From a virus, in the IMG/VR virus record IMGVR_UViG_3300010158_000027, positions 186,001 to 250,000 of that record: 64,000 nt of DNA. One strand, given 5' to 3'. The notes beneath the pieces are model-generated. The model was not told the DNA's origin, did no database searches, and saw only the letters and a program-made list of their open reading frames with translations. Position numbers and translations under genes: made by a program. Shown here one piece after another: positions 15,794 to 51,690 of the stretch; positions within the stretch are counted from its first letter, which is position 1; each line of letters opens with the position of its first letter.

Positions 15794-16582
15794 ATGTCAA
15801 ATCCTTTAAACCAAGACGAGATTCAAATTTACTTAAAAGACATCAGAAAATTAAAAGTTATGACACCTGAAAGAGAAAAGGTGTTAGCCGTTAAGATGAT
15901 GGGTGAAGATTGTTCAGAAAGAGAAAAGGAACTTGTCCATAAGGAACTATTGGAAGGTAATCTAAGATTTGTTATCACTGTGGCGAAGCAATATCAGAAT
16001 CAAGGGGTGGATTTATCTGATTTGATTGCTGAGGGGAACTTTGGACTTATGAAGGCGATTAAAAATTTTGATTGGAGTAAAAATAACAGGTTCATATCAT
16101 ACGCGGTTTGGTGGATTAAACAATCGATTCTACAGTCTCTGAACGATAATTCAAGAACAATAAGATTACCGGTGAACGTAATACAAGAAATGCAAAAAGA
16201 AAAAAAGGCAAACGAGAAAACTCATAATGATCTTTCAGACAAATTTGCAACACTACCAAAAATAATTGATTTGGATATGCACATAAACGAAGATGGGGAC
16301 ACATTGGTTGACATAATAAAAAACGAAAATGTGGAATCACCCGACGAGATATTCTCAACCAAAGACGCCCTGAAACAAAAGATGATTAATATAATGTCAG
16401 TTTTGGATGAAAGAGAACGAGCAATAGTTGAAGACTACTACGGCATCACTGGAACACCAAGAACATTGGAGGACATTGGAACTGATTTTTCTTTAACAAA
16501 AGAACGTGTAAGACAGATTAAAGAAAAAGCACTTCGTAAGTTAAGAAACGAATGTTCAGATTTATTTGAATATTTAGGATAA
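15794..16582 (+). CDS. phage sigma-70 family factor
   Basis: Start at 15794 (MSNPLNQDEIQIYLKDI) avoids overlap with the upstream gene; ATGs at 15764 and 15779 are alternatives. 262 residues: region 1.2 (QIYLKDIRKLKVMTPE), region 2 (DLIAEGNFGLMKAIKNFD, FISYAVWWIKQSI), region 3 (IRLPVNVIQEM) and region 4 with an HTH (TLEDIGTDFSLTKERVRQI). It resembles the short Bacteroidota primary sigma rather than T4 gp55. I infer it redirects host RNA polymerase to phage promoters, possibly the TATTTATW class. Confidence 0.9.
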   Translation: MSNPLNQDEIQIYLKDIRKLKVMTPEREKVLAVKMMGEDCSEREKELVHKELLEGNLRFVITVAKQYQNQGVDLSDLIAEGNFGLMKAIKNFDWSKNNRFISYAVWWIKQSILQSLNDNSRTIRLPVNVIQEMQKEKKANEKTHNDLSDKFATLPKIIDLDMHINEDGDTLVDIIKNENVESPDEIFSTKDALKQKMINIMSVLDERERAIVEDYYGITGTPRTLEDIGTDFSLTKERVRQIKEKALRKLRNECSDLFEYLG

Positions 16583-16586
16583 AATG

Positions 16587-16618
16587 TTTGGTGGATTAAT
16601 ATATTCGCCATATATTTG
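16587..16618 (+). promoter_or_regulatory. Bacteroidota-type promoter for small RNA
   Basis: TTTG at 16587-16590, 20 nt, TATATTTG at 16611-16618: a full consensus match directly upstream of the structured RNA. Confidence 0.75.
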
Positions 16619-16619
16619 T

Positions 16620-16761
16620 AAGACAAACAAAAAGGGTTGAACCGAGATTACCCTTATAACTCGGCGGGATGGGACACGAAGAGCCCTGGGTGAAAATCCT
16701 CAATCTTACTCGAGCGGTAAGATGAAACTACACTCCCCCATTGGTACCAGTGGGGGTTTTA
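16620..16761 (+). ncRNA. structured RNA candidate with H-type pseudoknot
   Basis: There is no ORF, but a complete unit: consensus promoter, ~115 nt body and a strong terminator. AAGGG (16632-16636) can pair with CCCTT (16651-16655) while CCGAG (16642-16646) pairs with CTCGG (16660-16664); the interleaving is an H-type pseudoknot. Further on there is a perfect 7-bp hairpin, ATCTTAC (16703-16709) with GTAAGAT (16717-16723). No known RNA family recognised. Begins TAAGACAAACAA, like the 49965 RNA. Confidence 0.6.
16733..16761. terminator. bidirectional Rho-independent terminator
   Basis: CCCCCA (16735-16740) pairs with TGGGGG (16751-16756), with palindromic GGTACC in the loop, then TTTTATTTTT. 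It serves the RNA and, read in reverse, the minus-strand gene ending at 16765. Confidence 0.8.
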
Positions 16762-16764
16762 TTT

Positions 16765-17172
16765 TTATACCGAAATTACTATCTGATCACGACCAACAAA
16801 AAAGTCATCCGATTTCATAACCGTTTTAACGAAAATGTTAAACTCATATGGTGATACCTCCTCCAAAATTACGGGGATATTAAGTGACGTGGATTTTTCT
16901 TTAATGATAAATTCAACACCATCATAAAGTTCACCAATAACTATATATTGGACGATAGTGTCTTTTGATTTCTCAACTGCACTTAAAATATCATAATCCC
17001 TAATAGGATCACCCTGGTGTCTATTTTTTCTATGTTCGGCATGTGATTTCATACCTTGAACTGCACCACGTTTATACCCCAAATTAAAAATTATGGTAAG
17101 GTTCGCCCTTATCTGTGCAATCTTTTTTTCTAGTAATAAATTTTTCAGTATACTCTCTCTTAATGATGTCAT
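16765..17172 (-). CDS. hypothetical protein, 135 aa, possible targeting N-terminus
   Basis: Minus strand. Begins MTSLRESILKNLLLEKKIAQI, an amphipathic stretch containing L-L-E like the candidate capsid-targeting peptides. The body (HAEHRKNRHQGDPIRD, then IVQYIVIGELYDGVEFIIKE) is a beta-rich fold of RelE/colicin size, but no toxin active-site pattern can be assigned. Isolated, divergent from the membrane protein at 17221. Confidence 0.6.
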   Translation of the reverse strand: MTSLRESILKNLLLEKKIAQIRANLTIIFNLGYKRGAVQGMKSHAEHRKNRHQGDPIRDYDILSAVEKSKDTIVQYIVIGELYDGVEFIIKEKSTSLNIPVILEEVSPYEFNIFVKTVMKSDDFFVGRDQIVISV

Positions 17173-33062: not shown

Positions 33063-33491
33063 ATGAAGCAATTAATTAAAAAAATATTAAAAGAGGAATC
33101 GTTAAAGCATAATCTTAAACAACAGATTAAAGATTATGGTTGGGTAGATACTTCGCAAATGGTTAATGGATCAAAAGAGTTGGCAAAATTGGCATTCAAT
33201 AATGATCCAATGGGGTTTCTACATATGTTTGATGATTTGGATATGGTTCAGCGTAAGTTATCAGCAAACTGGACTTTATTTAAACAAGAAAACGGAAATA
33301 ATTTAATGTTGTTGGATAAAAAAATTATTTATATATCTTATGGTGATATTTGGTCATTTTTGACATATGGTTTTGGACTTAGAGATTCCCAAGTTAGGGA
33401 CGTTATAAAGGTATGGTTGGGTGACGTGTACCATTTAAGGGGAATTACTATAGAGGCGGGATTTGATGAATTATTCAGCCATATGCGTTAG
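33063..33491 (+). CDS. candidate packaged protein, paralogue of 48691 gene
   Basis: 142 residues. N-terminus LIKKILKEES (L-K-E). The body is clearly paralogous to the protein at 48691: shared blocks include WxxTxxMVNGSxELxKxxFNNDPM and FLHMFxDLD, later KQENGxNLM and LSFLT-like segments. Fold unknown. The existence of two diverged copies, each with a targeting-type N-terminus, suggests an internal head protein family. Confidence 0.7.
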   Translation: MKQLIKKILKEESLKHNLKQQIKDYGWVDTSQMVNGSKELAKLAFNNDPMGFLHMFDDLDMVQRKLSANWTLFKQENGNNLMLLDKKIIYISYGDIWSFLTYGFGLRDSQVRDVIKVWLGDVYHLRGITIEAGFDELFSHMR

Positions 33492-42258: not shown

Positions 42259-43175
42259 AACGTTCTTTGAAATTCTAAAACCGACCGAAACAGTCACCAC
42301 AGTTAAAAAAAGTGAATATAACACCTCCCTTTCTTTAAACGTGAAACTAAATTAAGTCATTGGGCCGTGTATGGTCCATTAAAATAAACCACGAAAGTGG
42401 GATAAAGTGAATTTGCGAGTGTTAGTAGATTTGCGTCTTGGGAAACTGAGGTCGAGTACACAAGTGGGATATCATCCGACCTTTAGTATTGAGGGCGACG
42501 CTTTAGGGAAAGTGGTTGGATGGAACGGCAATGTGGATTGTCAGTCTGAGGAGGGAACTCCAATAAGAATAACCCATAGGTATCAAGCGAAAAATATAAA
42601 TTCCAAATATATAATTGCGGATACCATTATAAAAGGGGACTTAAAACCGAAAGGTAAGATAAAGAACGAGTGGTGTCGCTATTATCCCTATCAAAGATCT
42701 ACCAAGATCTTGATATGAAGTAATCTTAAAATATGGAAATGGGGACATTTCACGAGGTAGTCAGGTATTCTGTTTTTCAAAAGAAAATGGATCCTAAACG
42801 GACCGCTACTTTGATTCATCCACAACACACAACTTATTACTAAATTAAGTAAAATTAACTAAAAATAAGCAAAAGTGTTCGTTACGATATGACGGAAGTT
42901 ACCCACCTATTCACTGGCTGTCAGTGGAACGTGATAACCGCAAGTTTGACCGTATTTTTATGAAAAATCTCTAGGACGTCGAAATCCGAATCAGGACGCA
43001 ATCTTGATGAGACAGGAGTAGTAAGAGAGTAGTTGTATCGTCAAGGAGTGATTGGTCTAACCAATCGGTAATGAGTGTTACAGGACAAAATCCTGTGGAT
43101 AAGAGTAGAATACATAATGACTCAAAAGACACTTAATAAAAACTATAATCTCAGGTTTTTTTTAATATTCAAATA

Positions 43176-45199: not shown

Positions 45200-45208
45200 T
45201 TTGTGTGA

Positions 45209-45216
45209 TATTTATT
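45209..45216 (+). promoter_or_regulatory. TATTTATT late-promoter-like box
   Basis: TATTTATT 3 nt before the ATG at 45220. Confidence 0.45.
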
Positions 45217-45219
45217 ATT

Positions 45220-45591
45220 ATGAATATTAATGAAATCATAAAAAAGGTATTGAAAGAAGAGTTTCTAACGAATTCCTTAATATATGAGGATGAGTTTGGA
45301 TCGGTCGAAGAGGTTAACATTCTAACTGAAGCGGAGTATCAAGGTAGAAATGTGAGTCTTGGTAAAGTCATGCAGGGGGATATTAAAAAGTTTAAGGTTT
45401 ATGTTAAAAACGATAAAGGAAAAGTCGTTAAGGTGAATTTTGGATTTGGTGGTAAATCTGCACATGGGAAACGAATGGTTATTAAAAAAAATAATCCTGA
45501 ACGTAGAAAATCGTTTAGAGCGAGAATGAATTGTGACAGTCCAGGTCCCAGATGGAAACCTAGATATTGGAGCTGTCGGACTTGGAATTAA
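45220..45591 (+). CDS. candidate packaged protein with conserved RKSFRAR/YWSC domain
   Basis: 123 residues from 45220. N-terminal NEIIKKVLKEE ends in L-K-E. The mature part finishes with KVNFGFGGKSAHGKR, PERRKSFRARMNCDSPGPRW and RYWSCRTWN. I recognise this C-terminal block from conserved small proteins of marine T4-like phages, without an established function; the Cys and Trp residues suggest a compact metal- or nucleic-acid-binding fold. Confidence 0.7.
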   Translation: MNINEIIKKVLKEEFLTNSLIYEDEFGSVEEVNILTEAEYQGRNVSLGKVMQGDIKKFKVYVKNDKGKVVKVNFGFGGKSAHGKRMVIKKNNPERRKSFRARMNCDSPGPRWKPRYWSCRTWN

Positions 45592-48690: not shown

Positions 48691-49125
48691 ATGAAACACA
48701 TTATTAAAAAAATATTAAAAGAGGAATCGTTTAAACAAAGTCTTAAACAAATGGTTAAAGAGTTTGGTTGGGAGACTACTGCAGAAATGGTTAACGGATC
48801 GGAAGAGTTGTCAAAATCCGGATTCAACAATGATCCAATGGAATTCCTACATATGTTTAATGATTTGGATGTCGCTCAAAGTGAGATTAAACCAGATTGG
48901 TATTTAGTTAAACAAGAAAACGGAAAAAATTTAATGGCTTACAATAAAAAAAGGGGACTTCTTTACGTAGTTTATGAAAGTGTTTTGTCATTTTTAACAA
49001 AAGGGTTTAAACTTGAATACGATGAAATACTGGCACTTATAAAGAAATGGGCGGATAAGTCATACAATTTAAAGGGGTTAGAAACACATGGGGTTTACCA
49101 ATATGCTATTGAGCAGTTGGGTTAA
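48691..49125 (+). CDS. candidate packaged protein, paralogue of 33063 gene
   Basis: 144 residues. N-terminus IIKKILKEES (L-K-E). Shares with the 33063 protein the blocks around MVNGS-E-L, FNNDPM-FLHMF-DLD and KQENG-NLM. The preceding 140 nt hold only a decayed-looking 30-codon frame (LLDEILKKSRNTLKIY), no clear gene. Confidence 0.7.
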   Translation: MKHIIKKILKEESFKQSLKQMVKEFGWETTAEMVNGSEELSKSGFNNDPMEFLHMFNDLDVAQSEIKPDWYLVKQENGKNLMAYNKKRGLLYVVYESVLSFLTKGFKLEYDEILALIKKWADKSYNLKGLETHGVYQYAIEQLG

Positions 49126-49945: not shown

Positions 49946-49964
49946 AAATAAAAACATATCTTTG
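49934..49964 (+). promoter_or_regulatory. Bacteroidota-type promoter
   Basis: TTG (49934-49936), 20 nt, TATCTTTG (49957-49964). Drives the structured leader below. Confidence 0.6.
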
Positions 49965-49965
49965 T

Positions 49966-50162
49966 AAGACAAACAACGGGGGTGGGAAAGTTAGAGATGA
50001 GTGTCCTACTCCCGTGATAAGAAAAGAAGTTAATTGAAATAAAAATATGTGGTAGTAAAAAACGGGAAACTCGTAAAGTGTATCAACCTGTTAACACAAG
50101 ATAGTGAAACGAGAGTGTGTGTTAACTACTAAACTACAAAAAATAAATTAAAAATAACCATT
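49966..50162 (+). ncRNA. structured 5' leader or RNA, possible pseudoknot
   Basis: About 195 nt between promoter and ATG, starting TAAGACAAACAA like the 16620 RNA. ACGGG (near 49976) can pair with CCCGT (near 50012). GTTAACACA and TGTGTTAAC (near 50092-50127) form a perfect 9-bp stem. CTCGT upstream of that stem can pair with ACGAG in its loop, a possible pseudoknot. Could be a cis-regulatory leader of the 50163 gene. Confidence 0.45.
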
Positions 50163-51569: not shown

Positions 51570-51613
51570 CATAATACTTGACAATCTAAAAGTGATGGTT
51601 TAATATTATGTAA

Positions 51614-51683
51614 GTCAGTTAGCTCAGTTGGTAGAGCAATCCCCTTAAAAGGACGTGTCATTGGTTCGAACCCTTTACTGGCT
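51614..51683 (+). tRNA. degenerate tRNA-like RNA 5
   Basis: Acceptor AGTCAGT/ACTGGCT and D arm GCTC-agttggta-GAGC are good. The anticodon region ATCCC-CTTAAAA-GGACG pairs only at two positions and would read TAA (Leu) if functional. The T arm has two mismatches. Anticodon assignment is uncertain. Confidence 0.45.
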
Positions 51684-51690
51684 TATTTTT

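Follow-up and report, generated by a model that had tools for sequence, protein, structure and literature searches.

A conserved, pseudoknotted small RNA in large viruses of lake Bacteroidetes and its possible partnership with a predicted RegB/RelE-like endoribonuclease

The window analyzed here, a stretch of 64,000 nt that corresponds to positions 186001-250000 of a virus record of 281,269 bases, contains a gene for a small structured RNA (Table 1). This conserved phage RNA, designated type A, is almost certainly the product of a real gene, and the results described below give good support for a previously undescribed family of conserved, knotted small RNAs. The carriers are large viruses of lake Bacteroidetes bacteria. 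We tentatively suggest that the type A RNA works together with a RegB/RelE-like RNase encoded convergently to it, most likely as a binder of this protein.

Table 1. Positions of the RNA gene, its elements and its neighbors in the window, and loci of the other RNA types.
Feature	Position or loci	Strand	Remarks
Sigma-70-family factor of the phage	15794..16582	+	regions 2 and 4 (Pfam); directly upstream of the RNA
Promoter, Bacteroidetes type	16587..16618	+	TTTG 16587-16590, 20-nt spacer, TATATTTG 16611-16618
RNA gene	about 16622-16757	+	~135 nt; Bacteroidetes-type promoter, H-type pseudoknot, three hairpins, strong terminator
P1, 5' strand AAGGGU	16632..16637	+	pairs with 16650-16655
P1, 3' strand ACCCUU	16650..16655	+	partner of 16632-16637
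Pseudoknot helix, 5' strand CCGAG	16642..16646	+	pairs with 16660-16664, interleaved with P1 (H-type)
Pseudoknot helix, 3' strand CUCGG	16660..16664	+	invariant in the alignment
Junction CGGGA	16665..16669	+	unpaired, purine-rich GG(A/G)A; CGGAA in most relatives
P3 hairpin	16671..16686	+	C-G closing pair and loop ACGAA conserved; four pairs changed on both sides
P4 hairpin	16688..16700	+	3 bp, loop UGAAAAU; outer pair A-U/G-U/G-C
P5 hairpin	16703..16723	+	6 bp; 98.8% paired; four pairs changed on both sides
Single-stranded linker GAAACUACAC	16724..16733	+	conserved in the alignment
Intrinsic terminator	16735..16764	+	9-bp stem (6 G-C) and U-run 16757-16764; from terminator scan
Convergent gene, 135 aa	16765..17172	-	predicted RegB/RelE-like (BECR-type) endoribonuclease
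Type B RNA, GUCGGGAAGCUUACUCCUGGGG...GGGUUUAAAAUCCUC	just past the sigma stop in L003, L009, L012, L014, L024, L031, L033		not in Rfam
Type D, short two-hairpin RNA	L006, L010, L018, L036, after sigma or type A		loop GUCAGAAUAC in each; second hairpin is the terminator
Type E hairpins	L223-L234, L242-L276, L311, L324, L394		mostly convergent to RegB-like genes

In a sequence-only reading of this region, a small RNA gene had been described that has a promoter of its own, contains an H-type pseudoknot and ends in a terminator. The elements on which this description was based (promoter boxes, interleaved helices, hairpin and terminator) were all confirmed at their positions, and the gene itself is supported. 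Promoters of Bacteroidetes have the consensus TTTG at -33 and TAnnTTTG at -7. The promoter, which had been called a consensus promoter, is present but belongs to this Bacteroidetes type and not to the sigma-70 type; a sigma-70 promoter scan of the + strand gave no match at the site, because it is blind to the Bacteroidetes form. Transcription is expected to start near 16622-16626. In most of the RNase-paired relatives, the RNA is preceded by a promoter box like that in the window. The RNA body contains the hairpin that had been described (P5) and also two that had not been listed (P3 and P4). Further, the term self-contained applies to the RNA in the window but not to the family in general, as 29 of the 31 distinct versions that lack the RNase gene have no recognizable promoter. 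The U-run of the terminator touches the stop codon (16765) of the convergent gene. When the RNA was folded as a single sequence, its energy was modestly better than that of shuffled sequences (z = -1.83), which is little proof by itself; we therefore searched for relatives.

A search with the sigma protein yielded 80 loci, in some of which the same RNA was located behind the sigma stop, and quite different RNAs or genes occupied this position elsewhere. IMG/VR was then scanned with a 20-base core pattern, from which the 3' strand of the pseudoknot helix was left out, and the core was detected in 91 viral contigs that represent 61 distinct cores. The sequence-only reading had made the RNA gene depend on conservation of the paired segments, and these were found to be conserved in a structural alignment of 42 sequences: 98.5% of the predicted pair cells were paired, compared with 35-52% in controls with slid partners. 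Cells changed on both sides numbered 107, as against 34 in shuffles (0/500), and such changes occurred in ten pairs. Thus, four of the five helices, namely P1 (in its outer pair), P3, P4 and P5, are backed by compensatory change. The outer pair of P1 was A-U in 21 and U-A in 15 of the aligned sequences and the inner four pairs were invariant; the P4 loop followed UGNRANN in the aligned set, and its form in the window (UGAAAAU) resembles a T-loop or a GNRA loop. The second helix of the pseudoknot was present and invariant in 42 of 42 sequences, so that covariation cannot test this pairing, and we infer that the helix forms. The invariance of the CUCGG strand does not stem from the search, because this strand was absent from the search pattern.

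The homologue search with a covariance model, which had been proposed as a check, recovered diverged members (the L123, L098 and L090 groups, 59-76 bits) and at most one strong copy of the RNA per genome searched. The exact core was not detected in the prokaryote genomes of 84,980 species, and across IMG/VR and these genomes the RNA was found in viruses only. A pattern that tolerated an altered pseudoknot helix gave 14 matches, all of them by chance and none with both helices. The earlier statement that no family was recognized holds in Rfam, whose families, 6S, preQ1 and tmRNA included, gave no match between 16540 and 16800 at gathering or permissive thresholds; the best chance scores were far under the cut-offs. 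Named phage isolates contained no clear homologue of the RNA or the RNase, except for the RNase of the metagenomic LR745206, and a described RNA of this kind was not found in literature searches.

The position directly after the sigma gene had been taken to invite a role in transcription control. The positional link between the RNA and the sigma gene is real: many relatives have the RNA as the 3' UTR of the sigma gene, where it often starts 2-9 nt past the stop with no promoter. In other relatives, however, the RNA follows other genes or stands alone. In six loci (L083, L090, L098, L123, L126 and L154), the sigma gene is not near the RNA and a RegB-like gene is convergent with it, as in the window. 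Further, in very near relatives of the sigma gene, the slot contained a quite different RNA or none. The proposed role is therefore unsupported, and the sigma gene is probably not the neighbor that matters.

The protein encoded by the convergent gene has four invariant residues (E15, H44, I77 and Q130) and three near-invariant ones (R48, T117 and V118). AlphaFold2 models (pLDDT 80.7 and 84.3) consisted of an N-terminal helix followed by further helices and strands. When these were compared with the PDB using Foldseek, RelE/HigB-type toxins ranked near the top and T4 RegB (2hx6), whose family is marked by a RelE/YoeB-like fold plus an additional helix at the N-terminus, gave a TM-score of 0.42-0.44; the matches were weak, with nothing under E 0.001. 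Among viral models (BFVD), a phage 'site-specific RNA endonuclease' was matched at E 2.5e-3. Alignment with a profile of nine RegB proteins using hhalign was not significant (E about 0.06; 0.065), and it placed H44 over the catalytic H48 of RegB and R48 over R52, with no obvious counterpart of the second catalytic residue, His68. Searches of Pfam, PHROGs and PADLOC gave nothing convincing; one member matched DUF4258 (E 0.001). The predicted fold thus suggests, with weak to moderate confidence, a RegB/RelE-type endoribonuclease, and we refer to the protein as RNase-like or as an RNase in this model-based sense. The N-terminus of the RegB-like protein, M..LI+K.L.EE, also occurs in the unrelated products of 33063-33491, 45205-45591 and 48691-49125, and the genome encodes a T4-type prohead protease (PF03420). 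The common N-terminus, together with this protease, may point to a capsid-targeting signal, by which the RegB-like protein would be packaged and injected.

Structured RNAs and genes of this protein family were repeatedly found 3' to 3'. In the fetched loci, the 3' ends of 36 of 36 distinct homologues face a structured RNA of type A, C or D. As these loci had been picked by sigma or RNA, we used a search started from the protein, which reduces this bias. An opposite-strand Bacteroidetes promoter was present 50-230 nt from the stop in 40 of 59 distinct homologues, whereas among the controls, 107 other gene ends of these loci that had free 3' space, it was present in 6 (p = 1e-17); most of the faces with such a promoter hold a structured RNA, with at least four scaffolds represented. 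When 34 virus records were searched whole, the gene was found in ten, once in each, and faced such an RNA in all ten. In scans in the reverse direction, 50 of 77 matches to GGAACGATTYAGATAC and 26 of 37 matches to GGAAGACGATTNAGATAC were located directly against the gene; several of the remaining matches are chance occurrences in coding DNA. On the other hand, a clade of homologues (L253, L272, L273, L275, L277 and L278) and the homologue of LR745206 had no obvious RNA.

Of the 55 distinct type A RNAs for which the flanks were long enough, 24 faced the RNase gene and 31, over half, had no such neighbor; four large RNA-bearing records contained no RNase homologue at all. The junction was CGGAA or CGGGA in 24 of 24 RNAs with the RNase gene but in 17 of 31 without it (p = 8e-5, uncorrected for kinship), and the RNA possessed its own -7 promoter box in 17 of 24 and 2 of 31, respectively (p = 1e-6, likewise uncorrected). 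A kinship correction of RNase presence against promoter or loop used a tree built from the downstream gene, but this tree was poorly resolved and yielded too few independent pairs. Most of the RNA scaffolds expose GGA; it was not seen in the type D RNAs that were inspected.

The RNAs that occupy such positions differ in architecture. Type C is a multibranch scaffold convergent with a RegB/RelE-like gene. Type E RNAs consist of one or two hairpins in which the stems vary freely and the loop, GGAA(GA)CGAUUYAGAUACAA, is near-constant, as would be expected of a protein-binding hairpin; judging from their sequences, these hairpins are a separate, abundant phage RNA motif. We considered homology between the type A core and the GGAA..CGAUUYAGAUAC loop and rejected it, as the similarity was no better than that of shuffles (p 0.16-0.5). 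A hairpin with the loop UUUAAAAU/UGAAAAU is common to types A and B; with the type A model, a weak match to type B was obtained in L012 (16.9 bits, E 0.28). The terminator loop of the type A RNAs of L083 and L090 also contains GUUAGAAUAC, as may be compared with the type D loop. Upstream of the type C RNA in L211 is a structured RNA, GUAGGGUGUCUGGCGUAAUCCGACACAGGUUGAAAAUCCUAG, in which a GACAC hairpin is combined with a UUGAAAAU loop; this RNA is perhaps related to types A and B. Elsewhere in the window, a GOLLD RNA (Rfam RF02032, 277 bits) is located at 42753-43157 (+), an example of this RNA from a lake phage that is encoded by the same genome. A tRNA at 51612-51685 (+; Rfam 41 bits) has an odd anticodon loop (ARAGORN tRNA-???, anticodon 'ta'), and at 49950-50160 (+) a Bacteroidetes promoter that resembles that of the type A RNA (TATCTTTGTAAGACAAACAA) precedes an ORF whose leader is G-rich and apparently structured.

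The best reading of the partnership suggested above is that the RNA titrates or inhibits the RegB-like RNase or serves as its preferred substrate. The conserved RNA would act in trans as a partner of the RNase encoded opposite, whose 3' end lies against the RNA's terminator. It would most likely bind the protein by using its rigid pseudoknot as a scaffold on which the GGA-containing junction and the small loops are exposed, so that the RNase would be titrated, inhibited or channelled. The partnership, the binding by the RNA and the preference for inhibition over cleavage are our inferences, and inhibition, preferred cleavage and use as a cofactor are not separable by computation. RegB cleaves GGAG/U and recognizes unpaired GGA by itself, and an anti-RegB partner was raised as a possibility in the review by Uzan and Miller (PMC3014915). 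In lineages that lost the RNase, the RNA would stay as the 3' UTR of the sigma gene or another gene; from there it could be released by processing and target RNases that belong to the host or to rival phages, in the manner of the pseudo-ToxI of phage phiTE. It is conceivable, if rather doubtful, that several unrelated scaffolds (the pseudoknot of type A, the multibranch RNA of type C, the double hairpins of type E, and type D) act as RNA inhibitors or sponges of one RegB/RelE-like family and form a new class of phage module, in which the anti-RegB partner is an RNA.

Other readings account for parts of these results. The RNA could be a conventional regulatory small RNA, either transcribed from its own promoter or released by cleavage of the sigma 3' UTR, that base-pairs in trans with mRNAs of the phage or the host; the RNase-like neighbor would then be incidental or a helper. 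A conserved single-stranded linker (GAAACUACAC) and a terminator are typical of such RNAs, and both stand-alone and 3' UTR forms occur. However, when up to 2 mismatches were allowed, matches to the complement of the linker were as frequent in the phage genome as matches to a control pattern (40 and 41), just two other sites with 1 mismatch were found, no convincing antisense target was detected there, and the most conserved part, the pseudoknot, would hide a seed; we consider this reading unlikely. It is rather improbable that the RNA acts as a 3'-end element, in which a stable knotted 3' UTR would terminate the mRNA of the sigma gene, or of another preceding gene, and shield it from 3' exonucleases. 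The promoterless RNase-less versions, most of which start 2-9 nt past the preceding stop, fit such a function, but most RNase-paired versions, including that of the window, have their own promoter and are located tens of nt from the preceding gene. In addition, the loop sequences are conserved far beyond what this function needs, and the RNA is missing from the ends of other sigma genes in this clade.

The slot after the sigma gene might also be a hotspot of unrelated cassettes in which the RNA and the RNase-like gene cohabit without joint work, as the slot is taken by several RNAs (types A-D), by proteins or by nothing, and many type A RNAs are without the gene. This explanation has a low probability in our view, since in other genomes the RNA and the gene keep their convergent order at several further sites and the enrichment holds with either partner as the starting point. 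The abutting 3' ends (U-run 16757-16764, stop at 16765) and the absence of a terminator of the convergent mRNA ahead of the RNA gene would suit a type I-like cis-antisense arrangement, in which this mRNA reads through the RNA gene, is paired and destroyed. Such a mechanism does not need a conserved fold, yet the helices covary and the core is invariant, and genomes that lack the gene retain the RNA, which makes this arrangement very unlikely. We assign a similarly slight, marginally smaller chance to 6S-like binding of the RNA to the phage sigma factor or RNA polymerase. The RNA does adjoin the sigma gene in most relatives, but it has no 6S-like match in Rfam and no long bulged hairpin, it occurs without sigma nearby, and most sigma relatives lack it. 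A cis-acting riboswitch of the downstream gene was rejected, as the RNA has its own terminator and the next gene here is convergent.

These results thus provide a well-supported new family of structured phage RNAs, whose anatomy is ready for probing. Under the preferred reading, in which the RNA binds and restrains the RNase, the question of whether RegB-like phage RNases have a restraining partner becomes a simple two-component test. If this reading is true, RNA antitoxins extend to an RNase of the RelE fold and to large environmental phages of Bacteroidetes.

The convergent protein resembles T4 RegB in predicted fold, and the GGA read by RegB is exposed by most of the partner RNAs; the sequence similarity, in contrast, is not significant. 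To our knowledge, T4 RegB has no RNA partner. Decoy RNAs of the CsrB/RsmZ type can titrate an RNA-binding protein through GGA in exposed loops. The protein here is not CsrA, however, the motifs are far fewer and the GGA of type A is in a junction. GOLLD is likewise a structured lake-phage RNA with no assigned task but is unrelated in sequence and size. In the AbiF/RCd22 system, an RNA inhibits a phage-linked toxic RNA-binding protein (PMC12373285). This RNA (Rfam abiF motif) is also phage-borne and neutralizes the adjacent protein with conserved hairpins, and the sister type E RNAs also have two motif hairpins; in contrast, the RNA motif and the protein family are different, and the order here is convergent without co-transcription. 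The pseudo-ToxI of phage phiTE, an RNA of a phage without the toxin gene that neutralizes a toxin from elsewhere (PMC3475682), offers a model of the type A RNAs that have no RNase, although it mimics ToxI repeats and not the type A fold. Type III toxin-antitoxin systems (ToxIN with its RNA ToxI, CptIN and TenpIN) likewise combine a small pseudoknotted RNA with a small endoribonuclease-like protein. Their RNAs are tandem repeats of about 34-50 nt, whereas type A is a single unit and two motif copies occur in type E only. Further, their RNA is located upstream of the toxin gene and co-transcribed with it, with a terminator between them, whereas the RNA and the gene described here are on opposite strands, 3' to 3'. 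Their toxins have the ToxN/AbiQ fold, unlike the RegB/RelE-like protein of this large phage genome, and ToxN was not among the 50 Foldseek matches listed for the convergent protein, which were weak only. The convergent order, the single-unit RNA and the protein fold thus place the pair outside the known type III families, and its working principle could still be the same as theirs, as is the case for AbiF/RCd22.
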